Source of the DNA: Methylomonas sp. EFPC3
GTDB taxonomy: Bacteria > Pseudomonadota > Gammaproteobacteria > Methylococcales > Methylomonadaceae
NCBI RefSeq assembly: GCF_029643245.1
Contig: NZ_CP116398.1
Coordinates: 4,274,372-4,338,371, forward strand
DNA: 64,000 nt
Direction of reading: 5' to 3'
The notes beneath the pieces were generated by a model, which saw nothing but the letters and a program-made list of their open reading frames with translations, did no database searches and was not told where the DNA came from. Both the position numbers and the translations under genes were made by a program. Positions 24,119 through 44,585 of the stretch are shown piece by piece. The number at the start of each line of letters is the position of its first letter. Positions within the stretch are counted from its first letter, which is position 1.

Positions 24119-25018
24119 ATGGACAAACTGCAAGCAATGACGGTGTTCGTTACGGTCGCCGAAGCGCAAAGCTTCGCCGGCGCCGCGCGGCGGCTGGCGA
24201 TGTCGCCGCCGGCGGTGACGCGGGCGATTACCGGATTGGAAGAACGCTTGCAGGTCAAACTGTTGCAACGCACCACCCGGCTGGTGCGGGTGACCGACGC
24301 CGGCCAGCGCTATCTGGAAGATGCCAAGCGGATACTGGCCGACGTGGACGCAGCCGACGAAGCCGCCGCCGGCATCAACGCGGAGCCGGCCGGCCAGTTG
24401 GCCGTCACCGCGCCGGCGCAGTTCGGCAAGCTGTACGTGATGCCCGGCATCGTTGACTACCTGCAACGCTATCCGGCCATGCAGGTCACGGCCTTATTCG
24501 TCGACCGGGTGGTAAATCTATTGGAAGAAGGCATGGACGTGGGCATCCGCATCGGCGAATTGCCAGACTCCAGCCTGCGGGCGGTGCGGGTCGGCCAAGT
24601 GCGGCCGGTGGTATGCGCGGCACCGGATTATCTGCAACGCCACGGCGCGCCGAACGACCCCAGCGAACTGGCCAAACACACCCTGATCGCCGCCGGCGGC
24701 CTCGGCGCCGGCCCGGACTGGCGCTTCGGCAGCGGCGCCGACGCGCACAGCGTACGCATCCAACCCCGATTAGTCACATCCACGATAGACGCCGCGATCG
24801 AAGCCGCCGTGCAAGGCCTGGGCCTGACCCGCCTGCTGTCCTACCAAATCGCCCCCTACCTGGCCAGCGGCCAGTTGCAAACCGTGTTAAACCGCCACGA
24901 ACCGCCGCCGATCCCGACCCACGTCCTGCACCGCGAAGGCCGCTACGCCTCGGCCAAGGTTAGAAGTTTCGTCGATTTGATTGCCGAGCGTTTGAAACGG
25001 GAGGCGAGGTGGTTGTGA
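24119..25018 (+). CDS. LysR-family transcriptional regulator
   Basis: A 299-residue LysR regulator: helix-turn-helix AMTVFVTVAEAQSFAGAARRLAMSPPAVTRAITGLE and an effector domain of the CrgA type (DVGIRIGELPDSSLRAVRVGQVRPVVCAAPDYL). An AGGAGG-like sequence (CCAGGAGGC) precedes the ATG. It is divergent from the GST gene. A damaged copy of its last 60 bases, still readable as VRSFVDLI..RLKREASWL, lies at 26770-26836 beyond mtdB, so this region has been rearranged. Confidence 0.9.
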   Translation: MDKLQAMTVFVTVAEAQSFAGAARRLAMSPPAVTRAITGLEERLQVKLLQRTTRLVRVTDAGQRYLEDAKRILADVDAADEAAAGINAEPAGQLAVTAPAQFGKLYVMPGIVDYLQRYPAMQVTALFVDRVVNLLEEGMDVGIRIGELPDSSLRAVRVGQVRPVVCAAPDYLQRHGAPNDPSELAKHTLIAAGGLGAGPDWRFGSGADAHSVRIQPRLVTSTIDAAIEAAVQGLGLTRLLSYQIAPYLASGQLQTVLNRHEPPPIPTHVLHREGRYASAKVRSFVDLIAERLKREARWL

Positions 25019-25146: not shown

Positions 25147-25443
25147 TTTTTTAGCGATGCTTTCGTAACTTGCAAGGACAAGAAAACGCACATAAGCTGG
25201 CATTCAAAAATCCAGCTGCGATTTACCCCTCAAGGCATACAAGCTTGCGTAATCGCACATTTCTTGTCCATCCAAAACGCTCATCTGTTTGGCTATCACA
25301 AAATTCCGCTATGCAAGCAGCATCGCGATCCGTTTGATCGGTTGCTGTTGGCAAGTGCTTACCAGGAAAATTTGATTTTGTTGTCCGCGGACAATCATTT
25401 CGCCCTTTACGAACAGTGGGTTCAGGTGTTTTGGTCGCAGTGA
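25147..25443 (+). pseudogene. Remnant of a VapC-type PIN-domain toxin
   Basis: The frame ending at the TGA 25441-25443 reads LSIQNAHLFGYHKIPLC, then KQHRDPFDRLLLASAYQENL, then ILLSADNHFALY. HRDPFDRLL-A and L-S-AD-F are the C-terminal signature of PIN toxins (RNases). The frame is open from 25147 but contains no start codon and lacks a recognisable N-terminal LDTH segment, so the gene is decayed. No intact antitoxin is visible before it. Composition is more AT-rich than the LysR gene. Confidence 0.6.
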
Positions 25444-25571
25444 TGGACGATCTGCGTTCTCGGGTTATTTTCCTGTGCGATAGGATGACTCCGTCAGGCA
25501 CATCGTTTGCGACCGTTGCGCCTCGCCGCTGGCTCGGCGCAACCTATGTGGGGTGCGGGCTTTATTGCGTT

Positions 25572-25665: not shown

Positions 25666-26586
25666 TTAAATCGATTTTTCCGGCTTGGCCGCTTGCTGTT
25701 TTAATACCGATAGCGCAAATTCATACGCTTCGGGGAAATCGATTAAGGCCGCGGTACTGTTTTTTTGGATTTGCTCATATAAACCAAACTGGGTTTTATA
25801 TTTCAAATTACCGATAGCCATCGGGCCTATGCTCAAAAAACGGGTGCCGGATACCTCCGCGACGACACCAAGGTCGTTAAGACCGATGCCGGCCACTCCG
25901 CTAGGTGGCACCGCATTGGTATCGGCTGCCAGGATCAGGTTCTTGGCATGCGCCAAGGAGTTCTCCAAAATGCGCACCCCGGCTCTTACTGCACTAATAA
26001 TGATTTCGGCTTCCCGGACCACGATGTCTTTTTCGTCGTTAGTCTGCGCGGACACCCATTCGACTTGAGCGTTGTAGCGTTCGCAAAAGCGTTGCGCCGA
26101 TCTTTCGTCGTCGTCGGCAACCAGTTGGCACAGTTTTACCTTTGCGCCCTGTTGCGTAGCCAATATAGCTGTGCAAAGACCAACCGGCCCCGTGCCGAAT
26201 ACGGCCACTTTCTTTCCCGACAAGCCTTGGCCGGTCTTGTCGTTCAGAACCTGTTCGATCAAGGCGACAATACTTGCGGACGTGGTATACGCGCCATTCG
26301 GATCGGCGAATACGCCAACCTTGAAAGGTCCGACCATGGCATTTTTGGCATTCTGAAACATGTCGGTCGCCATATGCACATCGCGTCCGCCGATGAAAAT
26401 GCCGGTGTCGTTAAAGCGGTTGGGTGGGCGACAAAAAATGGCGTCTTGAACCATTGCCGATACTTGCTTAGGTTCGACTTTGGTAAACGGCACCACCATA
26501 TCGAAGCCGGCATCAGCAGCAATGGTGACATCGAATGGGCTGATGTTTTCGCTAGGCGTTAAAAAATACAGAATTCTTTTGGTCAT
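25666..26586 (-). CDS. mtdB: NAD(P)-dependent methylene-tetrahydromethanopterin dehydrogenase
   Basis: A 306-residue enzyme that oxidises methylene-H4MPT to methenyl-H4MPT in the formaldehyde oxidation path of methylotrophs. Family features: N-terminal MTKRILYFLTPSENISPFDVTIAADAGFD-type substrate domain, and a Rossmann domain starting KKVAVFGTGPVGLCTAILAT. The IGNLKYKTQFGLYEQI end also fits MtdB/MtdA-type enzymes, and length is normal. It is the strongest pathway marker for the organism. It stands alone, flanked by direct repeats, with no other H4MPT genes within the window, and its upstream DNA carries a fragment of the LysR gene. Confidence 0.88.
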   Translation of the reverse strand: MTKRILYFLTPSENISPFDVTIAADAGFDMVVPFTKVEPKQVSAMVQDAIFCRPPNRFNDTGIFIGGRDVHMATDMFQNAKNAMVGPFKVGVFADPNGAYTTSASIVALIEQVLNDKTGQGLSGKKVAVFGTGPVGLCTAILATQQGAKVKLCQLVADDDERSAQRFCERYNAQVEWVSAQTNDEKDIVVREAEIIISAVRAGVRILENSLAHAKNLILAADTNAVPPSGVAGIGLNDLGVVAEVSGTRFLSIGPMAIGNLKYKTQFGLYEQIQKNSTAALIDFPEAYEFALSVLKQQAAKPEKSI

Positions 26587-26726
26587 GGTCGATTGGTCCG
26601 GGTTAATTTTAAAGGTGGTTTTAATATAGTTGATACCGGACTATTTACTGCGGGCTCTTAAAAAACTTGTGCTTCGGAGCGAGTAAGCCCGGTTGGCACG
26701 GTTTTGTACCCACCCTACGGCTGCTG

Positions 26727-26836: not shown

Positions 26837-26881
26837 TCAACATGCCTCCGATTAGGCTACCGCTAATCGGAGCGATCTATT

Positions 26882-28000
26882 TTAGGAAAATTTTTGAGGT
26901 AGTTCAGCTTGGTAAACACGATAAGCATCCTTAGTAACATTCAGCAAAAGTTTAATGAGGGGATTCCAGTCAGAATCCATTATTTTAAGTTCGTTATTTG
27001 GATAGAGTTGATGAACAAGTTGATTTCGTATTCTGTAAATCTTTATAGCCAATGCTTCGTGAGATTTCTTCTGATCATCGGTGCCATCAAACGACCAGCT
27101 GTTTTCAGCAAAACTAACGCTCTGAATACCACTGGTCTCAATTATTTTCTCATCGATATCTTTGAATATTCTGCATAGCGAATCTTCCTCACGCTTTCGC
27201 CACCCAAGCTCATCGATACAATGTCTTGCTAATTCATAAGCTGGGTTTGAATAAGATAATTTATTTTTTAACATTATGCTGCGCGGCATAACATATAAAA
27301 CCTCAATGCATCGATATAGCTCAATAAATGCATGCTTATAATGCGTTGCGGTTAGCGATAAGAAAATGTTTTCCTTTAGAACTGGGGAGTCCTCCTGCAG
27401 CATGGAAATATAATCACTAATCAGGGGTTGCATCGGTAGCTTAATAAATTCTTGGAATTGAGAGCAAATAAAGTAACCTGTTTCAATGTAATTTCTACCG
27501 CTATAAATGCTATTGGCATCTATTTTAAATATCGCAAAGATCTCGATAAATTTTATTAGATCATAAAAATCATGTCCTTGATAATTTTCATCATATTCAT
27601 CAAAAAATATTTCGTCTAGCTCTCGTAAATCTAATGGTGAAATTCTTTGTAAATTGGCTTCGGTAGCTATTACTAAAAATAGTCCAGCATTAACTTCTTG
27701 CTCAACTATGCCTAAAGACTCTAAGTGTCTCGATATTTCTTCATAACTCGGGTTGGTTTTATTTATTTGGGTTAGTACTAAATATTCGATGTTTTCATAT
27801 AAAAACCTGCCAATTTTTACGTTATGTAAGATGTAGTCTACTTCTAGTCTTGATGCGTTACGAAATATTTTTAACTCCTCGCAAAAAGCTGATTTATTTT
27901 TGTTTTTTAATATTTTCATGTTATCAATATTAGAAACGCTCAAACCATCTGAAAGGAGGTTGAAAATGTTTCTGCTATATTGAATTAGGCCTCTACTCAT
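26882..28000 (-). CDS. HEPN-like protein, second gene of a DGQHR/HEPN module
   Basis: A 372-residue mostly helical protein. Near the C-terminus it reads ALAIKIYRIRNQLVHQLYP; RNQLVH fits the R-x4-H motif (often RNxxxH) of HEPN ribonuclease-type domains, like those in Apea-like and other defence proteins. The first 250 residues match nothing I know. Its ATG at 28000 shares the base A with the TAA of the upstream gene (TAATG), so translation is coupled. The gene is clearly AT-rich compared with mtdB. RNase function is inferred from the motif only; a non-catalytic HEPN fold is also possible. Confidence 0.6.
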   Translation of the reverse strand: MSRGLIQYSRNIFNLLSDGLSVSNIDNMKILKNKNKSAFCEELKIFRNASRLEVDYILHNVKIGRFLYENIEYLVLTQINKTNPSYEEISRHLESLGIVEQEVNAGLFLVIATEANLQRISPLDLRELDEIFFDEYDENYQGHDFYDLIKFIEIFAIFKIDANSIYSGRNYIETGYFICSQFQEFIKLPMQPLISDYISMLQEDSPVLKENIFLSLTATHYKHAFIELYRCIEVLYVMPRSIMLKNKLSYSNPAYELARHCIDELGWRKREEDSLCRIFKDIDEKIIETSGIQSVSFAENSWSFDGTDDQKKSHEALAIKIYRIRNQLVHQLYPNNELKIMDSDWNPLIKLLLNVTKDAYRVYQAELPQKFS

Positions 28001-29181
28001 TATTTAGCCGCCCAACAAGGTTCCATTGATGTAAGTCTGTCTGCGTAAGAAAATAATGTCGAAAAAGCTTTGAAGAAAAAATCTCTTTCAAATTCGCCGA
28101 TTTTACCGCTTCTTCGACTAAGCTTTTCGTTCAAAAAAGACAATTCAAGAAATGAATCAAGTTCAGCTAAATTCTTTTGATTTAGAACATTCACCAAGTT
28201 TTCTATATTAGTAGAAAGTGTATTTGTCTTATTGTCAGCATCGTTGTCATCATAGGAAAACCCTGGAGGCCCAAAAATATAGACTGAAGCAGCCGCAATG
28301 AACCCAATACCCGCAGGTGCGCTAGCAAATATATCCCGACCGGATTCAAATCTTTCACCAATCGAATTTGCTGAGCTTGTGAGTTTGGTGAAAGCTTCAT
28401 CTAGTTTCGCCATGTTTTTTAACGAACTTATAAACCTAGGTAAAAATGATTTGCTTGCTGTCGCCTCGGTGGCATCCATTCTTGCAAAATCCTCGGCTAC
28501 TCGTTCTTTAATGTCAACGTCAGTCTTACGCGACGAAAACGCTAGGAAATATTCGATTAATCGTTCGCTTAAATATTGGCCAGCATCGGTTCGATTTCTA
28601 CGCTCTTTTTCGTCAATAAAAAGGATATTTATGTTCGGAACCTCCTTTTCAATTTCCGTTAGAATTGGTTTGTAGATTGTTTCAAGTTGACGTTTCATAT
28701 CCCAAGGAACCTGCCCAGTATTTAGAACAAGCATTCGATATATGAGCTCATCTATATGACTTGAGAGCCAGATTTCGATTCTGATAGGATGACTGGAAAT
28801 TTGGCCGTCTTTATTAGCCTCCAAAATTGCAGTGGTTCTTTGCATGCCGTCAATGATCGAAAGATCATCCTTATTGACTTTATTGATGAAATCACTCATG
28901 TCTTCATCTGACTGAATATTTTTAGCAGTACTGAATTGACTTTCAGTAAGTACCGCACCTATAACCATTGGAGGGAGAATAGCGCCAACTTTTATGTCGT
29001 TTACCATACGATTTCTTATTCTTATCCCCGTTTTGGTTTTCAGCGGAGCCCTCTGGCCAGCTAGTCCACCTCGGTCTGAATAAACACTTTCAACAAGAGT
29101 CAAATACTCATTAACAGTTGTTGTGTAAATACAAGATAGACAGTTAGTACGCCGGTCTTCCAATAAATAATTTTTACTCAT
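28000..29181 (-). CDS. DGQHR/DndB-like protein, first gene of a two-gene module
   Basis: A 393-residue protein. The core reads NRMVNDIKVGAILPPMVIGAVL, then LSIIDGMQRTTAI, then YRMLVLNTGQVPWDMKRQLETIY. The IIDGMQRT block with a following (L)NTGQ-P segment resembles the DGQHR domain of DndB-type proteins and the DGQQR loop of DUF262/GmrS-type proteins, with Met in place of the first Gln. Such proteins occur with DNA modification or restriction genes; none is next to it here. It is co-translated with a HEPN-like protein. AT-rich DNA suggests transfer. Biochemical role is unknown. Confidence 0.6.
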   Translation of the reverse strand: MSKNYLLEDRRTNCLSCIYTTTVNEYLTLVESVYSDRGGLAGQRAPLKTKTGIRIRNRMVNDIKVGAILPPMVIGAVLTESQFSTAKNIQSDEDMSDFINKVNKDDLSIIDGMQRTTAILEANKDGQISSHPIRIEIWLSSHIDELIYRMLVLNTGQVPWDMKRQLETIYKPILTEIEKEVPNINILFIDEKERRNRTDAGQYLSERLIEYFLAFSSRKTDVDIKERVAEDFARMDATEATASKSFLPRFISSLKNMAKLDEAFTKLTSSANSIGERFESGRDIFASAPAGIGFIAAASVYIFGPPGFSYDDNDADNKTNTLSTNIENLVNVLNQKNLAELDSFLELSFLNEKLSRRSGKIGEFERDFFFKAFSTLFSYADRLTSMEPCWAAK

Positions 29182-29514
29182 AATGTTGATCTCATTTTAT
29201 GTAGCTCAATATATTAACCTCATGGTAGTGTATCTTGCACAGTTTGTGTATGCCGCACATCGGGAACGGAATTTTCCCTGCGACTGCTTTCCAGGATCGA
29301 TCAGCCCTTCAAAATGGGGTATGGTCCGGTAGGGTGGGCACGGTTTTGTGCCCACGCGGATTGAAGCGGTGGGCAAATTTGCCCACCCTATAGCTGCAAT
29401 TGAAGACTGACAGCTCCACATCTCACGCCGATTTGACTGCCCCGTGAGGATTTCGTGATGTTTCCGTTTGCACAATGGCCGCGCCATTTGGCATTCACAT
29501 TCAGGAGAATCACG
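29182..29514. repeat. Gap with GGTGGGCA palindromic repeat
   Basis: The left part (to about 29250) is AT-rich and should hold the promoter of the DGQHR-like gene. At about 29329-29389 lies a repeat TAGGGTGGGCACGGTTTTGT..CCCAC followed by GGTGGGCAAATTTGCCCACC, whose two halves form hairpins. It resembles the fragment at 26692-26720. No gene is seen. The site AGGAG before 29515 serves the next gene. Confidence 0.55.
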
Positions 29515-30342
29515 ATGCAGAAAAACCATGCTTTCGCGCTGTCGGCGCTGTTGTTGGCGGCCGGCGCGGCGCCGTTGAGTTCGGCCGAGGCGGCGCAAGT
29601 TACCTTGAGTTTCAGCAATTTGTCCGCAGCCAACGGGCCGGCCTTGAGTCCGTTCTTTATTGCCTTGCACGACGGTTCGTTCGATGCCTTCGATGTCGGC
29701 ACGACCGCCTCTTCGGCCATCGAAGCGATCGCCGAATTGGGCAACGGCGGCGGCTTGTCCTCGGCGTTCGCGGCCAGCAGCGCGGCGGCGGCCGGCGGCA
29801 CCAGCGCGACGGTGACGGCGTCGGTCAACGCTTTCGGCCCCGGCATCTTCCTGCCCGGCGGCAGCGGCAGCGTTACCTTGAATCTGGATCCAGTAAAAAA
29901 CCGTTATCTGAGCTACTTCGCGATGGTAGTACCGTCCAACGATCGGTTTGTCGGTAACGATTCGCCAACCGAAATCGAATTGTTCGACGCCCAAGGCCAT
30001 TTCACCGGTGGCACCTTCGTCGAGAACGGCAGCAGTATTTGGGATGCCGGCACCGAACTGGACGGCACCACTGGCGCGGCCTTTCTGGTCGGCTCGAACG
30101 CATTAGACAGCCCGGCGCAAAACGGCACGATTCAAGCCAACCACGACTTCTCCGTCTACGCCGGCTTGCCGACCGCGGCCGGTTACAACTTTACCGACCT
30201 GCCCGGCGCCAACACACCGTTGCTGCAAATCACGGCGGTGTCGCAAGTGCCGGTACCGGCGGCAGCGTGGTTGTTCGGCAGCGTGTTGCCGTTGTTCGGT
30301 TGGCTGCGGCGGCGCGCGCCGGCTTCTGCTTTGTCGGCGTGA
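29515..30342 (+). CDS. Spondin_N-like exported protein with VPLPA-type sorting signal
   Basis: A 275-residue exported protein: signal peptide (MQKNHAFALSALLLAAGAAP..AEA), then a Spondin_N-like domain with LSPFFIALHDGSFDAFDVG early and SYFAMVVPSNDRFVGN in the middle, the two segments that define this fold. The C-terminus VPVPAAAWLFGSVLPLFGWL plus RRRA is a VPLPA-CTERM signal for exosortase processing. The ATG at 29515 has AGGAG 10 bases upstream. A surface or extracellular-matrix role is likely by family; no partner gene is adjacent. Confidence 0.8.
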   Translation: MQKNHAFALSALLLAAGAAPLSSAEAAQVTLSFSNLSAANGPALSPFFIALHDGSFDAFDVGTTASSAIEAIAELGNGGGLSSAFAASSAAAAGGTSATVTASVNAFGPGIFLPGGSGSVTLNLDPVKNRYLSYFAMVVPSNDRFVGNDSPTEIELFDAQGHFTGGTFVENGSSIWDAGTELDGTTGAAFLVGSNALDSPAQNGTIQANHDFSVYAGLPTAAGYNFTDLPGANTPLLQITAVSQVPVPAAAWLFGSVLPLFGWLRRRAPASALSA

Positions 30343-30658: not shown

Positions 30659-31306
30659 TCAAAACCCATCGCCATAGCCTTGATTTTGCAGGCTGGCCGG
30701 TGGTTTGCCGGTCTGAAAGCGCATTTTCAATTCCAGCGATACACGCAATTCGGCGGACGGCAAGGTCACTACCTGATCGGCCGGCTGTTCGGCGGCGTCC
30801 GGATGCCAGAAGGTCAGGCGGTAGCGGCCGTTCGGCAAGTCCAAGCTCCAGCGGCCGTCGTTATCGGAAACCGCCAGATAATCCGCGTCGCTGACGTAGA
30901 CGTAACCCAGCATCCAATCGTGAATGTTGCAGCCCAGTGCGACGATGCCGGGTTGACCGAATACCACCGGCTCGGGCGGCACGCCGCTGTATAACTTGAT
31001 TTCGAAGCGCTTGGCCGGCGAGAACGAATAGACGTGGTGCTTGATGGCATCGCTGTTCGGAAAATACACCGGCGTGCCGCTACGCACCGCCAACACGTGG
31101 GGGATGAATTCGCGGCTTTTCTGGTCCAGCGCCATCGCTGCCGGCGGCGGCGCGGCCTTGACCCGGCCGGCTTCGTCCAGCGCCTGTGCCGCCACCACCA
31201 GATTGGCCAGTGGCAGGCCGCCGGCTTCGGCTGTGCCGGCCAATTCCGCGGCCGGCGCCACCGAGGCCCACGCCGTTAAAAAAACAGCCGGTAGCCGACT
31301 TGCCAC
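30659..31306 (-). CDS. Cupredoxin-like periplasmic protein ('methylamine utilization' type)
   Basis: A 215-residue exported protein. I place the start at the GTG at 31306, where AGGAGGAG lies 5-12 bases upstream and a signal peptide (ASRLPAVFLTAWASVAPAAEL) follows; it overlaps the porin gene by 31 bases. From residue 60 it resembles a plastocyanin-like fold: PNSDAIKHHVYSFS (His90/91) and GCNIHDWM (Cys126, His129, Met132), a plausible type 1 copper site. The last part is a carboxypeptidase-regulatory-like beta domain (DGRWSLDLPNGRYRLTFWHP). It is the last gene of the regulator-kinase-porin operon. Copper binding is inferred. Confidence 0.75.
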   Translation of the reverse strand: MASRLPAVFLTAWASVAPAAELAGTAEAGGLPLANLVVAAQALDEAGRVKAAPPPAAMALDQKSREFIPHVLAVRSGTPVYFPNSDAIKHHVYSFSPAKRFEIKLYSGVPPEPVVFGQPGIVALGCNIHDWMLGYVYVSDADYLAVSDNDGRWSLDLPNGRYRLTFWHPDAAEQPADQVVTLPSAELRVSLELKMRFQTGKPPASLQNQGYGDGF

Positions 31307-32571
31307 AGCGTCTCCTCCTGATATGCCGCTTCGCCGCGCTCCAATCGGGCCGGAAGGGCGCTGAAAATGCGGCTGAATTCGAGGTTGAATTGATGGCGCT
31401 GAGCGAAGGTCAGGTTGTAATTGACGGTCCAGGCCTGGCCGTGTTCGCCGTTGCGGTCTTGCGGCAGGTAGTCGCGTTCGTCGCTGCCGAAGCGCTCGTA
31501 GCGCACGCTGAAGCGGCCGTCGCCCAAAGGCCGGCTCAGTAGCCAGCTCGCCGACCAAAAGCCGACATCGACCGCGTGCAAGTCGTCGATCAAGTCGCCC
31601 ATGCTGGTACGTCCGCGCATCCCTTGACTGATCAGCGTGATTTCCCACGGCAATTCGGCCTTGGCGCCCAGGCTCCAGAAACGGGTGTGCCAGCCGTATT
31701 GGCCGGCCGACAGCGCCGCCGGGTCGGCGTTGTTGTCGTAATACAAAGCCCGCAGTGTGTAGCGCTGTGGCCGTTCGGCGGCGATGCCGGCGTAAAAGCC
31801 GGGCCGGCCGTCGACTTCGACGAAGGTTTGGCTGGCGTTCGCCTGCTTTGGAAACAAGGCCGGAATGCCGATGCCGTCCGGCAGGCGCAGGCGGCCGGTC
31901 AAGGTCGATTCGAAGTCGTGCAGACTCCAGCCGCGCCAGGCCAGCATCAGGCCGGCGGTGTCGTTGTTGGCCAGCCCGGCGCCGAACACGCCCAGTCTGT
32001 CGCCGGCCTCGGTTTGGTAATCCAGGCGCAGCTCGCCGCCGAAGGCGTGTAATTCCTGGCCGACCCAGGCGTTGATGGTCGACGAACTCAAGGTGTAAGG
32101 GCTGCTCCAGGCAGTGCCGGTGTTCTCCAGCGAAATCGGCGGAAAGAACATGCCCAACCTGCCGGCGAAACGCCAGCCGGCGGCGCCGACCGGCCGGTAG
32201 GCCAAATAGGCCTCGGTCAAATCCAGCGGTGCCGATTGGCGGTCGGCGTATTTGACGGTGGCATTGACCATCCAGTCCCAGTCCAAGCGCACCTGCAAGG
32301 TAGCGGCGGCTTCGTTGACCCGCCAGCGGTCGTGCTCGCCGCCGGCCCGCAATTTGCCCAGGCCGTGTTCCAGCTCGCCGGGCGCGGCGTCGCTGTGCTG
32401 GTAGCGCAGGTCCAGCAGGCCGTGCCAGGTCAATTCCGGAAATTGGCCGTCGTCGGCTTGGCAGATTGGCAAGCCGGTAACAGCGAGTAAGGCCAACGAC
32501 AGTTTCAGCCGCGATGAAACCCCGCTGTTCCAATTGGGCGGCGTTGAGATAATCGAGGACAGCCGGATCAC
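31276..32571 (-). CDS. Predicted outer-membrane porin-like protein
   Basis: A 431-residue beta-rich protein ending YRLFF, the terminal phenylalanine usual for outer-membrane barrels. The hydrophobic signal segment (LKLSLALLAVTGLPICQA) begins near residue 22, so the N-terminus is long. The only start available is GTG at 32571, 16 bases after the kinase stop, with no clear ribosome site; translation is probably coupled. Alternating aromatic strands (TWHGLLDLRYQH, GWRFAGRLGMFF, FSVRYERFGSDE) support a barrel. Solute unknown; it is followed by the cupredoxin-like gene and preceded by a two-component pair. Confidence 0.75.
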   Translation of the reverse strand: MIRLSSIISTPPNWNSGVSSRLKLSLALLAVTGLPICQADDGQFPELTWHGLLDLRYQHSDAAPGELEHGLGKLRAGGEHDRWRVNEAAATLQVRLDWDWMVNATVKYADRQSAPLDLTEAYLAYRPVGAAGWRFAGRLGMFFPPISLENTGTAWSSPYTLSSSTINAWVGQELHAFGGELRLDYQTEAGDRLGVFGAGLANNDTAGLMLAWRGWSLHDFESTLTGRLRLPDGIGIPALFPKQANASQTFVEVDGRPGFYAGIAAERPQRYTLRALYYDNNADPAALSAGQYGWHTRFWSLGAKAELPWEITLISQGMRGRTSMGDLIDDLHAVDVGFWSASWLLSRPLGDGRFSVRYERFGSDERDYLPQDRNGEHGQAWTVNYNLTFAQRHQFNLEFSRIFSALPARLERGEAAYQEETLWQVGYRLFF

Positions 32572-32587: not shown

Positions 32588-34345
32588 TTAGGGTTTGCCG
32601 CCGGCGTCGCGCGCCATATCCGCCAGCGGCAAATCGAAGCGAAATTCGCTGCCGACGCCGAGCGTACTGTCCACGTCCAAGCGGCTGCCGTGCAATTGGG
32701 CGATCTTGCCGACCACGATTAAGCCGAAGCCGCCGCCGTCGGCGCGGGCGCGCCGGGCCAGCGGCGAGTCCCAATCGCACAAGGTCGGCAAGTATTCCGG
32801 GGAAATTCCGATACCGGTATCGGCAACCGAGACGGCGACGCGGCCGTCCGCCGGCCAGGCGTCCAGCCTTACCGCACCACCGGATGGCGTATGGCGCAGC
32901 GCGTTGTCGATCAGATTGGTCAGCAGGCGTTCGATCAGGCCGATGTCGGCGACGACCGCCGGTAGCGCCGGGCGCAATTCGGCCCGTAAGGTCACGCCAC
33001 GCTGCTCGGCCTGCAAGCGGTATTTTTGCGCTACATCTTGCAGCAATTCGGCCAGATTGAACGGCTCCGGATTCAAGCTGGCATCGTCGCATTCCAGCTT
33101 GGCTAGTTCGAACAATTCCTGCGCCAGCCGGCTGACTTTTTCGGTCTGGCGCAACGCGGTGTCCAGGAAATGCCGCTGCTCGTTGGCCGGCAAGATATCG
33201 GCCTTGCGCTGCATCGTTTCCAGAAAGCCGCGCAACGCGGCCAGCGGCGTGCGCAAATCGTGTGACATGGTCGCCACCAGCTCGCGCCGTTCCTGGTCTT
33301 TCTGGCGCAATTCGCCCAATTGGCCGGCCAGTTGCGCGGCGCGCACGAAGGTGTCGGCCAGCCGGCCCAGTTCGTCGCTCCGGCCGGTCAGCGCAGAAGA
33401 CGCGAAGTCGCCGTTGACTACCCGTTCGCCGGCCCCGGCCAAGGCCCGTAGCGGCCGCGACAGATTACGGGCGATCACGACGCTGCCGGCCAGCGTCGCC
33501 AACAGGCCGAGCACCAACACCCCGGCCGCCAGCAACAGCATCCGGCGATAACCGGCGAAAGCGTCGGTGAACTTGATTTGCAGTAAGGCAACGATGCCTT
33601 GCGTCGGGTCGGCGGCCGGCAAGGGCAGGATGCGGCCGAGATAACGGCCCTGAGCGGTATCGACCGTGGCCGCCAGCGTCCGGTCGGCGCCGCTGTTCAG
33701 CAAAGCCAGGGCCGCGTCCGGCGCGGAGCCGGCCAACAAGCGGCCGCCGTCGGCATTCAGCTCGGCCAAGCCGATTTGCAGCGGCAATAGCGAATTCTGC
33801 CGAAACTGGGCGATGCGCGGCTCGTCGACCGCCTGCGCCACCGCCACCCAACCTACCGGCAGCGGCGCCAGCACCGGCACTAATGCCCATTCCTGCAAGC
33901 GGCCGTCCGTGACGGCGAACCACACCGCCGGGTTGTTGCCGTCGGCACGCGCCAAGGCTTGCGGATAGGGAAACGGCCGGCCCTGCCATTGGCCGGCGCT
34001 GTCGGCGACGACGTTGAATTGCGGATCGATGAAAAATCCGCGCCGGGCACGGACGCGCAGCAGCAGGTTTTCCAGCGCCGAGGCGATCGTGGCCGGATCG
34101 CCGCCGGTCACTGTGCTGCGGAAGCCGAAATCGGCGACCAGCAAGCCGGTCTCGCCGGCCACCCGTTCGGCGCGCTCGACCAGCAACTGGCGGAAAGCTT
34201 GTTCGGCGTAGCGCAAATCCTGATCAAGCTGGCGTAGCAGATTGTCCCGCACCGCGACGTAAATGCAGGCCACCGTCAAGGCTTGCACCGCGACGAACAG
34301 AGCGGCAAACAGTAAGGCGATGCGGCTTTGGAAACTGAGCGTCAT
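32588..34345 (-). CDS. Membrane sensor histidine kinase
   Basis: A 585-residue kinase. Helix 1 (about 8-30), a periplasmic sensor region of about 240 residues (Cache-like), helix 2 (about 275-298), HAMP (RPLRALAGAGERVVNGDF), HisKA with VATMSHDLRTPLAALRGFLE (phospho-accepting His), and HATPase with N-box NLIDNALRHTPSGGAV and G-box DTGIGI. Its ATG at 34345 overlaps the TGA of the response regulator gene. It would phosphorylate that regulator in response to a periplasmic signal; the signal is not known. Confidence 0.93.
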   Translation of the reverse strand: MTLSFQSRIALLFAALFVAVQALTVACIYVAVRDNLLRQLDQDLRYAEQAFRQLLVERAERVAGETGLLVADFGFRSTVTGGDPATIASALENLLLRVRARRGFFIDPQFNVVADSAGQWQGRPFPYPQALARADGNNPAVWFAVTDGRLQEWALVPVLAPLPVGWVAVAQAVDEPRIAQFRQNSLLPLQIGLAELNADGGRLLAGSAPDAALALLNSGADRTLAATVDTAQGRYLGRILPLPAADPTQGIVALLQIKFTDAFAGYRRMLLLAAGVLVLGLLATLAGSVVIARNLSRPLRALAGAGERVVNGDFASSALTGRSDELGRLADTFVRAAQLAGQLGELRQKDQERRELVATMSHDLRTPLAALRGFLETMQRKADILPANEQRHFLDTALRQTEKVSRLAQELFELAKLECDDASLNPEPFNLAELLQDVAQKYRLQAEQRGVTLRAELRPALPAVVADIGLIERLLTNLIDNALRHTPSGGAVRLDAWPADGRVAVSVADTGIGISPEYLPTLCDWDSPLARRARADGGGFGLIVVGKIAQLHGSRLDVDSTLGVGSEFRFDLPLADMARDAGGKP

Positions 34346-40740: not shown

Positions 40741-40924
40741 GTAGCTTTTATCGAGGGTCGGCAGAAGGGGCTTCCCAGCCCCTCCGCCGACGCACCGCAT
40801 CCATGCGGTGCCCCTTCGGGCTGATCTCGATAAAAGCTCCGGTGCTCGGCGCGGCATACGGGAGAAAACCCCGCCGCTATATTCGAATCCGGCTAATATT
40901 TGTGCAGTTTTGTAGGGCAATGGG

Positions 40925-40937
40925 ATGGACTCCTCCC
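40925..40937 (+). repeat. Left inverted repeat of the IS1111-type element
   Basis: ATGGACTCCTCCC, exactly complementary to 42306-42318. A second GGAGGAGTCC copy at about 40991-41001, just before the transposase start, could pair with it. Confidence 0.8.
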
Positions 40938-41004
40938 TCCTAGCGGCATCGGGTGCCAGAGGGATAGACTAAAGCTATCCGACAAGCGGAAGGAGGAGTC
41001 CGAG

Positions 41005-42051
41005 ATGAATGTTAAACGTATAGGAATTGATTTGGCAAAACAGGTGTTTCAAGTGCATGGGGTCGATAGCCACGAACAGACCGTGCTGAAGAAAAAACTT
41101 AAACGCGAGCAAATGCTGCCGTTTTTTCGGGACTTGCCGGCGTGTTTGATTGGCCTGGAAGCCTGCAGCAGTGCCCACCACTGGGGACGAGAACTCGAAA
41201 AACTGGGTCATACCGTCAAATTGATTGCGCCGCAATTCGTCAAACCCTATGTCAAGGCGAACAAAAACGACGCCAATGATGCGGAAGCGATCTGCGAAGC
41301 GGTCTCGCGACCAACGATGCGTTTCGTAGCCATCAAGACGGTGGCTCAGCAAGACCTACAGGCCACGCATCGCATACGCAGTCAATTGGTCAGTCAGCGC
41401 ACCGAGAAGGCCAATCAAATTCGCGGCTTGCTGGCCGAATACGGCATCGTCGTCGGACAACGCCTGGAAACCTTACGCAAAGCGCTACCGGGCTTATTGG
41501 AAGATGGTGACAACCACCTGACCAGCCACTTCCGAAGTTTGCTCAACGGTTTAAAAGACGATTTGATCGGCCTGGATGAGCGCGTCAAAGATCTGGATAA
41601 ACGCATTCAACGCCAAGCCGATACCGATCCGGGCGCCAAACGTCTGCAGCAAATTCCGGGCATCGGCCCGATTACCGCCACAGCCCTGGTCAGCGGCGTG
41701 GGTGACGGCAAGCAATTCAAGCGTGGACGGGACATGGCGGCTTGGCTGGGCTTGACGCCAGGTCAACATAGCAGTGGCGGCAAGGAACGGCTGTTGGGCA
41801 TCAGCAAGCGCGGCGATGCCTACTTGAGGACCTTGTTGATTCACGGCGCACGGGCCGTGCTCAAAGTCGCCGGGCAAAAAGACGATCCGCGCAGCCGTTG
41901 GCTGCAAACCCTCAGCGAGCGGCGTAACAAAAACATCGCCGCCGTCGCCTTGGCCAATAAAAACGCTCGAATTGCTTGGGCGTTATTGAGCAAGAACATC
42001 GACTACCAACCGGACCGAGACCGGCCGGCTGGGGAATCGGCTTGGGCCTGA
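41005..42051 (+). CDS. IS110/IS1111-family transposase
   Basis: A 348-residue DEDD transposase. The N-terminal RuvC-like domain shows GIDLAKQVFQVHG (Asp), LIGLEAC (Glu) and KNDANDAEAI (two Asp). The C-terminal Transposase_20 domain shows LQQIPGIGPITATALVSGVGD, FKRGRDMAAWLGLTPGQHSSGGKERLLGISKRGDAYLRTLLIHGA with the conserved serine region. Length and all motifs are intact, so the enzyme is probably active. AGGAGGAG lies about 10 bases before the ATG. Members of this family recombine DNA with an RNA guide encoded in the element. Confidence 0.93.
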   Translation: MNVKRIGIDLAKQVFQVHGVDSHEQTVLKKKLKREQMLPFFRDLPACLIGLEACSSAHHWGRELEKLGHTVKLIAPQFVKPYVKANKNDANDAEAICEAVSRPTMRFVAIKTVAQQDLQATHRIRSQLVSQRTEKANQIRGLLAEYGIVVGQRLETLRKALPGLLEDGDNHLTSHFRSLLNGLKDDLIGLDERVKDLDKRIQRQADTDPGAKRLQQIPGIGPITATALVSGVGDGKQFKRGRDMAAWLGLTPGQHSSGGKERLLGISKRGDAYLRTLLIHGARAVLKVAGQKDDPRSRWLQTLSERRNKNIAAVALANKNARIAWALLSKNIDYQPDRDRPAGESAWA

Positions 42052-42318: not shown

Positions 42319-42459
42319 ATACGTATTAGCGATAGCGTAATGCGCCGAATGCTTTAAGGCCGACATGAGGCGCAATACGGCTACGTTTATTGAACGCCCT
42401 ACGAAAATTGCACGTTGCGGCCTTAAATTGTATCTTTGAAAAACCATTTAAAAACAAAC
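42319..42459. other. IS right flank with REP-like palindrome
   Basis: TACGTATTAGCGATAGCGTAATGCGCC just after the IS, and ACGCCCTACGAAAATTGCAC further on, look like REP-type repeat parts; the latter is the inverse of GTGCAGTTTTGTAGGGC left of the IS. The IS therefore seems to have split a repeat block. The rest leads into the DUF429 gene. Confidence 0.5.
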
Positions 42460-43401
42460 ATGCTACCTAAAGTAATCGTTCACTCAGATTGGAGTATCAG
42501 CCCGAACAAGCGTTGGATGTGCCAAGCGGTCCTTGATGGCAATACTTATCGTTTGTCAGCACCTGTGCAAGTGAACAGCCCCGATAAATTGGTGAAGAAT
42601 CAACTTTATCAAGCCAAAGATGGTGGAGTTATATTGGGATTTGATTTTCCGATTGGTTTCCCGAAATCCTATGCAGGTCGTGCTGGTATTGATAAATTTA
42701 TCGATGTGCTGCCGGAATTGGGAAGTGGTCAATGGCGAGATTTTTTTAAACTGGCTGAACGATCTGAGGAAATATCAATATACAGGCCATTTTATCCATT
42801 TCGTTCTGGTGGAACTAAGCGCAGTCAACTTGTTGAAGGGTTAAAAGTAGAAAGTTTTACGGAGCTGTTGAGGCGTTGCGAATTAGGCAGCGAGAAGCGG
42901 AACGATGCATGCTCATTGTTTTGGACATTAGGCGGAAATCAAGTCGGCCGGGCCGCAATTTCTGGATGGCGTGAAATTCTGATTCCTTCGTTAAGAACCA
43001 TGAAAACTGATATAGCCATTTGGCCTTTTGATGTACAAATGGATCAATTAACTGAATTCAATTCCGCCGTTATAGTTGAAACTTATCCTGGAGATGCGTG
43101 CGTACAAATTGGATTAGGAGCGGCGGGGCGTGGTTGGTCAAAGCGGAACAGGGAGCATCGCATTAGTAAAGCGCAGGCCATAAAAAAAATAGCAAGCGAG
43201 TTGGGGCTTGATATTAAACCTATTGAGTCCGCTATTGATGATGGTTTTGGTAATTCTGATGTTGGAGAGGACCAATTTGATGCATTAATTGGCTTACTTG
43301 GCATGTTATCAGTTGTTCTGGGAATACGGGATGACGGGTTACCGGAAGATGAGTCTGTAACAACGGTTGAAGGTTGGATATTTGGACAAAAAGTAAATTA
43401 A
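42460..43401 (+). CDS. DUF429 family protein
   Basis: A 313-residue protein with the DUF429 pattern: VIVHSDWSISPNKRWMC start, VILGFDFPIGFPKSYA, AVIVETYPGDACVQIG and the late GEDQFDALIGLLGMLSV block. The acidic residues (SDW, FDFP, EDQFDA) resemble an RNase H-like arrangement, so a nuclease activity has been proposed for the family; nothing shows it here. AT-rich, just downstream of the IS. A TTG eight codons earlier is possible, but the ATG at 42460 is favoured. Followed 21 bases later by a 92-residue gene that is probably its partner. Confidence 0.75.
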   Translation: MLPKVIVHSDWSISPNKRWMCQAVLDGNTYRLSAPVQVNSPDKLVKNQLYQAKDGGVILGFDFPIGFPKSYAGRAGIDKFIDVLPELGSGQWRDFFKLAERSEEISIYRPFYPFRSGGTKRSQLVEGLKVESFTELLRRCELGSEKRNDACSLFWTLGGNQVGRAAISGWREILIPSLRTMKTDIAIWPFDVQMDQLTEFNSAVIVETYPGDACVQIGLGAAGRGWSKRNREHRISKAQAIKKIASELGLDIKPIESAIDDGFGNSDVGEDQFDALIGLLGMLSVVLGIRDDGLPEDESVTTVEGWIFGQKVN

Positions 43402-43422
43402 TATTTATTAGGGCTTACTGTA

Positions 43423-43701
43423 ATGAATTCGGAATATTATTCGTTAGATTTAATCGTTGAAAAATTAAATAAGCACAAACAGCGAGCGACATATGGAGCT
43501 GTTGCAGGTGTTTTGCGAAAACTACCTATAAGCCTGATGAAGGGATATGAAAAATGTCCTCGCTATTCTTGGATTGTCTCCGAAAAAACAGATCGCCCTA
43601 CAGATTACACTGTAGAGCAACTTCATCCTGAATTGGATTCAAAAACATTCACGATTAAAACATCGAAAAATCTAATCGAATGGCTTATGAAAAACCCATA
43701 G
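43423..43701 (+). CDS. Small protein of unknown function paired with DUF429
   Basis: A 92-residue protein: MNSEYYSLDLIVEKLNKHKQ, a basic middle (GAVAGVLRKLPISLMKGYEKCPRYSWIVS) and an IKTSKNLIEWLMKNP end. The RATYGAVAGVL and YSWIVS..RPTDY pattern recalls small proteins found beside DUF429-like genes, possibly a winged-helix-type fold. No function is known to me. It starts 21 bases after the DUF429 stop, AT-rich like it. Confidence 0.6.
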   Translation: MNSEYYSLDLIVEKLNKHKQRATYGAVAGVLRKLPISLMKGYEKCPRYSWIVSEKTDRPTDYTVEQLHPELDSKTFTIKTSKNLIEWLMKNP

Positions 43702-43853
43702 TTTGATGGGCAAAAAGGTTTTCCACTTATGCTTCTGCCCTGCATGTGGTGGAGTAGCTTGGTTTTGATTAAGAAATGCATGATTATGTAGTCACCTCGG
43801 ATCACTCTTTTTCGGGATTTCTAGGAAATTTTTTAAAATAGGTTTGATTGATA
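43702..43853. other. Short AT-rich spacer
   Basis: No gene is seen. An AGG stretch at about 43839-43842 may serve the next gene. Confidence 0.4.
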
Positions 43854-44585
43854 ATGAAAATCGAAGATTCTTATCTTAGATCACTAGAGATAATACACAT
43901 TCACTTTGAATATAGTCTTAGACAAAACCAACAAGCGGCAAAGCTTGTATGGAGGTTATATCAATCCGATCCTAATTTGTTGCTTGATGTATATGCTAAT
44001 ATTTTTCGCCAATTTCGGGCAGATAGTCCCAAGCTTTTGACTGATGACACTCAGGCTAAAATCCTTTCGCTATTAGATAGGCCTTTATCTTCTTCTGAGT
44101 CAGAAAGTGCGATACTAGAGAAAGTTTACTCGTCAATAAACTATGAGTATGCTCTTGCTAGACACCTTCTAGCGCGCATGCCAAAATTGGACTTCTTAGG
44201 GCTGCTTGAGCTGCATGAATCCAGAAGACTAAGTCATCCAGTATTAGGAGAGTATAAGCTGCTTGTTTCAATAGGGACAGCCTTGTTTGCCCTTTGGAAT
44301 AAATCTGAAATAGAATTGTTAGGAGATGTCCAGATAAGACTTCCTTACGATCATATTCCAGGGGAATGGCAAAACGCATTTTGGATTATTATATTTGGTT
44401 TTTCCTTGTTGGCTGGGATATATTTCTTTGTAATTTACTCTCATAAACAAAGGATTCACAAATCAGTAAAAAATATATTTGAGGCAGGGAGAATAATTTC
44501 AGAATCCGAGAAAAGATTGAAACAGAAAACAATTTACAAACGTCTTCCTTGCTTTTCTCATTCTGGTAGTCTGCGTAGGCGATAA
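43854..44585 (+). CDS. Predicted membrane protein of unknown function, C-terminus in repeat DNA
   Basis: A 243-residue protein, helical in the first 130 residues, with one clear membrane helix at about 180-200 (AFWIIIFGFSLLAGIYFFVIYS) and a weaker hydrophobic segment before it (LLVSIGTALFALW). A basic tail (SHKQRIHKSVKNIFEAG) suggests the C-terminus is inside the cell. The last 15 or so codons (KRLPCFSHSGSLRRR) run into the intergenic repeat region starting near 44575, so the original C-terminus may have been replaced. Family unknown; AT-rich. Confidence 0.55.
   Translation: MKIEDSYLRSLEIIHIHFEYSLRQNQQAAKLVWRLYQSDPNLLLDVYANIFRQFRADSPKLLTDDTQAKILSLLDRPLSSSESESAILEKVYSSINYEYALARHLLARMPKLDFLGLLELHESRRLSHPVLGEYKLLVSIGTALFALWNKSEIELLGDVQIRLPYDHIPGEWQNAFWIIIFGFSLLAGIYFFVIYSHKQRIHKSVKNIFEAGRIISESEKRLKQKTIYKRLPCFSHSGSLRRR

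Follow-up and report, generated by a model that had tools for sequence, protein, structure and literature searches.

A divergent Dazbog-like gene pair with a HEPN motif in its DzbB homologue occupies an AT-rich insert of Methylomonas sp. EFPC3

We analyzed a 64,000-nucleotide stretch of Methylomonas sp. EFPC3 (contig NZ_CP116398.1, positions 4,274,372 to 4,338,371; hereafter the window), in which two minus-strand open reading frames (ORFs), at 28000–29181 (393 aa, gene 1) and 26882–28000 (372 aa, gene 2), are joined by a TAATG overlap and resemble the two genes of Dazbog (DzbA-DzbB), an anti-phage system reportedly described by Millman et al. in 2022. A sequence-only reading of the window had singled out this module as two AT-rich, overlapping genes, and coordinates, overlap and composition agree with it: GC content is 0.362 in the module vs 0.573 in the rest of the window, and when a 2300-nt window is slid in 100-nt steps, none of the 571 positions clear of the module matches its AT-richness. 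Third-position GC is 0.33 and 0.31 in the module genes vs 0.58–0.81 in five nearby ORFs (24119–25018, 25666–26586, 29455–30342, 30659–32533, and 32588–34345). The source genome, a single contig of 4.44 Mb, carries one DzbA.

Gene 1 is a homologue of dzbA. It matches the PADLOC DzbA model PDLC03835 over residues 7–391 of 393 (E = 2.6e-56) and PHROG 27603 (2.3e-161), and matches Pfam GmrSD_N at 2.3e-4, under the curated cut-off. Its AlphaFold2 model has a pLDDT of 85.3; Foldseek puts two SspE chains and one of BrxU at the top, each a weak match, and a ParB fold match is likewise weak. The loop IIDGMQRTT (residues 109–117; 28831–28857, minus strand) corresponds to the (I/V)DGQQR nucleotide loop; DGMQR is kept in all 23 DzbA-DzbB pairs compared below, matching the (I/V)DGxQR loop of DUF262/GmrS proteins, and D111, G112, Q114, and R115 are invariant across 50 sequences. 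The loop is a putative nucleotide-binding site. All the motifs quoted in the sequence-only reading (IIDGMQRTTAI and NTGQVPW in gene 1, RNQLVH in gene 2) are present, and its suggestion of a DGQHR/DndB or DUF262 loop holds for DUF262, given the GmrSD_N and SspE/BrxU matches. The DndB half does not hold, PF14072 not being among the Pfam families listed for gene 1 up to E = 1. Gene 1 probably encodes a DUF262/GmrS, ParB/Srx-like protein, not DndB, and its product is a putative sensor/NTPase.

Gene 2 is a more distant relative of its counterpart, with a weak match to the PADLOC DzbB model PDLC03836 (5e-5, residues 135–331 of 372). The DzbB model is also matched by 23 of the 27 proteins in the gene-2 alignment (A2) at E ≤ 0.01 and by five of seven partner proteins (3.7e-9 to 0.0012; those at loci L004 and L008 are without a match). 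The AlphaFold2 model (pLDDT 91.3) has an N-terminal alpha/beta domain and a C-terminal HEPN-like helical domain with predicted helices at residues 221–248, 254–265, 271–281, 312–329, and 342–362. RNQLVH (residues 325–330; 27011–27028, minus strand) is an R-N-x3-H motif, and in the model R325–H330 closes helix 312–329. Across the 23 pairs, R-[N/H]-x3-H is universal: both R and the final H are found in every pair, and the second position is N in 20 and H in three. This agrees with the R-polar-x3-H definition given for HEPN families (PMC3710099; this and the other papers cited by accession are drawn on in excerpt). Of the 27 gene-2 family members, 14 have a Pfam HEPN_Apea entry at E ≤ 1 (best 6.5e-5); the listing for the window's own protein, taken to the same limit, has none. 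Fold and profile support is weak, and gene 2 is most likely a HEPN-type protein, as the sequence-only reading had proposed; the possibility it raised that neither protein has the expected fold does not hold for gene 1 and is unlikely for gene 2. Three DzbB relatives (L032, L034, and L035) have R-H-x3-H in place of R-N-x3-H, plus an H where E271 stands, and perhaps form a sub-branch.

The two genes travel together. Outside the window we compared 23 DzbA loci (three genome contigs, four plasmids, and sixteen viral contigs; duplicates dropped), and in 22 of them DzbA is followed immediately, on the same strand, by a gene that matches the gene-2 profile (E 3.3e-7 to 7.6e-133); at the remaining locus (L040), the contig ends within DzbA. 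Three of these loci (L002, L003, and L004) belong to A2 and so match the profile by construction, L038 shares its start with an A2 member, and L012/L014 and L045/L046 are near-identical; the count leaves out weak gene-1 matches on five plasmids (H6–H10) and in genome G170. An extra locus found via gene 2 (L050) starts inside DzbA, in its final 49 residues, and a gene-2 relative adjoins. Because 22 of 23 loci have this arrangement, the objection that the adjacency might be seen in one genome only fails. Nor are the two ORFs a chance pair, since E ≤ 0.001 is reached by 2270 matches to gene 1 (among the 7993 candidates with most shared words that were scored; relatives listed are the best 120) and by 21 to gene 2 (self included in both counts; 26 match the profile of the first gene-2 alignment, A1). 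In the 23 pairs formed by the 22 outside loci and the window, identity to the window copy is 34–56% for DzbA and 12–35% for DzbB, and pairwise distances are correlated between the two proteins (Mantel r 0.893, reached by none of 2000 permutations): DzbA and DzbB diverge together.

The pair is found on four plasmids; a fifth yields hits to gene 1 and gene 2 alike (H4 and H13). It also occurs in several predicted viral contigs, including one from Yersinia aldovae (also listed as a genome contig) where it directly follows an integrase-like ORF (labeled by eye). On small plasmids of Roseobacter and Sulfitobacter (L012/L014), the pair adjoins a convergent cytosine DNA methyltransferase and an uncharacterized gene.

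In Methylomonas sp. EFPC3, the pair is an AT-rich insert at a variable site. The same-species draft genome G408 shares its flanks (left, 98% identity up to 26697; right, 90% from 29411) and has between them 3.15 kb of other content (L025, 1467–4617), namely an MCP-domain protein plus an ORF of 185 aa that has no match in Pfam, and no Dazbog pair. A 23-nt repeat with three copies in the 4.44-Mb genome (≤ 2 mismatches) flanks the module: one copy, at 26691–26713, marks the left edge, where the G408 alignment breaks, and another, at 29333–29355, lies near the right edge, ahead of the point where it resumes. Inserts may have been exchanged here through recombination at the repeats. The sequence-only reading had placed the module in a region with repeats and a decayed toxin; the repeats are there, and the toxin was not identified, a short nearby ORF (25223–25501) being without a PADLOC or Pfam match at E ≤ 0.01. 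Just past the end of dzbB, at 26846–26872 on the plus strand, lies a ten-pair stem with a T-rich tail. Elsewhere in the window, three AT-rich ORFs at 42436–44585 (third-position GC 0.30–0.35), for which PADLOC, Pfam, and NCBIfam gave no match at E ≤ 0.01, adjoin an IS110-type transposase (40900–42051) and are perhaps another acquired insert.

Taken together, we consider with good confidence that the pair is a divergent Dazbog anti-phage system with a HEPN-type DzbB. Because Dazbog is already in a defense database (PADLOC), the locus is a divergent member of a known system rather than the discovery of a new one. The sequence-only reading had known of no described system of this pair; it is already described as Dazbog, and a DUF262 + HEPN system, PD-T4-2, appears in a 2023 review. 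Excerpts of the literature place DUF262 in Dazbog, PD-T4-2, and Menshen, report that resistance is abolished when the DUF262 gene is mutated or deleted, and regard recognition of methylated DNA as likely (PMC10952713). Methylases can activate Dazbog by a mechanism given as unclear (PMC12409349); Dam is named as an activator, with the mechanism marked “Unknown” and the system placed among largely uncharacterized ones (PMC12926258). Dazbog is grouped with abortive infection systems (PMC11680222) and named in further lists (PMC10286901, PMC13340146, and PMC10121019). The domain table of PMC10952713, as excerpted, gives HEPN for PD-T4-2, PD-T4-5, PD-T7-3, and ApeA and not for Dazbog. That review is the one paper that a literature search gave for Dazbog together with HEPN, and related searches turned up no other seen to join them; Millman 2022 or Stokar-Avihail 2023 may already name HEPN for DzbB.

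The sequence-only proposal of a sensor paired with an RNase fits these findings as a putative scheme. DzbA, through its DUF262/GmrS fold and DGMQR loop, would sense a sign that a phage has infected the cell, probably phage DNA that carries a modification (methylation); through nucleotide binding or hydrolysis, it would free the HEPN domain of DzbB, which would then cut RNA and halt phage growth via growth arrest or cell death. Observed here are the homology of both genes to Dazbog, their side-by-side position and shared divergence, the conserved motifs, and the predicted folds; the requirement for the DUF262 gene and phage methylases as trigger would carry over by analogy from other Dazbog copies covered in the excerpted reviews. 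RNase activity of DzbB and control over it by DzbA are what we infer. A bolder idea, which, like the full chain from trigger to RNase, we hold at a little under even, is that Dazbog is a split GmrSD relative in which a separate HEPN ribonuclease has taken the place of the DNA-cutting DUF1524 domain, wiring a DNA-modification reader to RNA cleavage, such that a phage that methylates its DNA against restriction would trigger an RNA-level shut-down.

The same overlap, with the putative neutralizer encoded first, the HEPN motif, the joint divergence, and the plasmid occurrences would also suit a toxin-antitoxin module maintained by addiction, with DzbB as HEPN RNase toxin, DzbA mainly as its neutralizer, and defense as a secondary effect. 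Most antitoxins, however, are unlike DzbA, a large protein with an invariant nucleotide loop, and the reported loss of resistance when the DUF262 gene is mutated or deleted (PMC10952713) suggests that the partner can be carried alone; we regard this explanation as unlikely. Still less probable is modification-dependent restriction, in which the two proteins would jointly cut modified DNA like GmrSD or BrxU with DzbB as a DNA nuclease: DzbA is weakly similar to BrxU and SspE in their DUF262 portion, but Pfam listings up to E = 1 show no DUF1524/HNH nuclease domain in either protein, and the DzbB motif is one tied to metal-independent RNases (PMC3710099). It is equally improbable that the copy in the window is a remnant without activity, a fate suggested by a same-genus genome (G514; L008, L010) in which an IS1380 transposase ORF separates two pieces of DzbA and the 282-aa partner ORF carries RNRFFH and has no PADLOC DzbB match, since both window ORFs are full length with motif residues kept and, by sequence, the copy looks intact.

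For a divergent Dazbog, the HEPN assignment of DzbB is probably the useful addition and the part worth testing. A motif kept in all 23 pairs compared gives Dazbog a concrete, testable effector; a probable RNA-cutting enzyme would help account for how the system stops phages, and, if true, would connect an RNase with DUF262, a family of DNA-modification sensors.

Known systems share parts of this design. ApeA-type HEPN proteins (PF18739) have R-N-x3-H in common with DzbB, along with the weak Pfam match in about half of its family, whereas DzbB is paired with DzbA in the loci seen and the window's own copy lacks that match. The type IV and phosphorothioate-sensing effectors GmrSD, BrxU, and SspE share DUF262, the nucleotide loop, and a weak fold match with DzbA, but in place of the DUF1524/HNH nuclease the window pair has a separate HEPN-like protein. 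PD-T4-2 (Vassallo et al. 2022) is listed under both DUF262 and HEPN in the excerpted PMC10952713, and PMC9519451 covers its deletion and HEPN-like similarity in 6 of 21 systems; the window proteins, however, gave no PADLOC match under that name (PADLOC's coverage of PD-T4-2 is unchecked). Closest is Dazbog itself: although the window's DzbB is distant from the PADLOC model (5e-5), both genes, their order, their adjacency, and DUF262 in DzbA are all common to the two.
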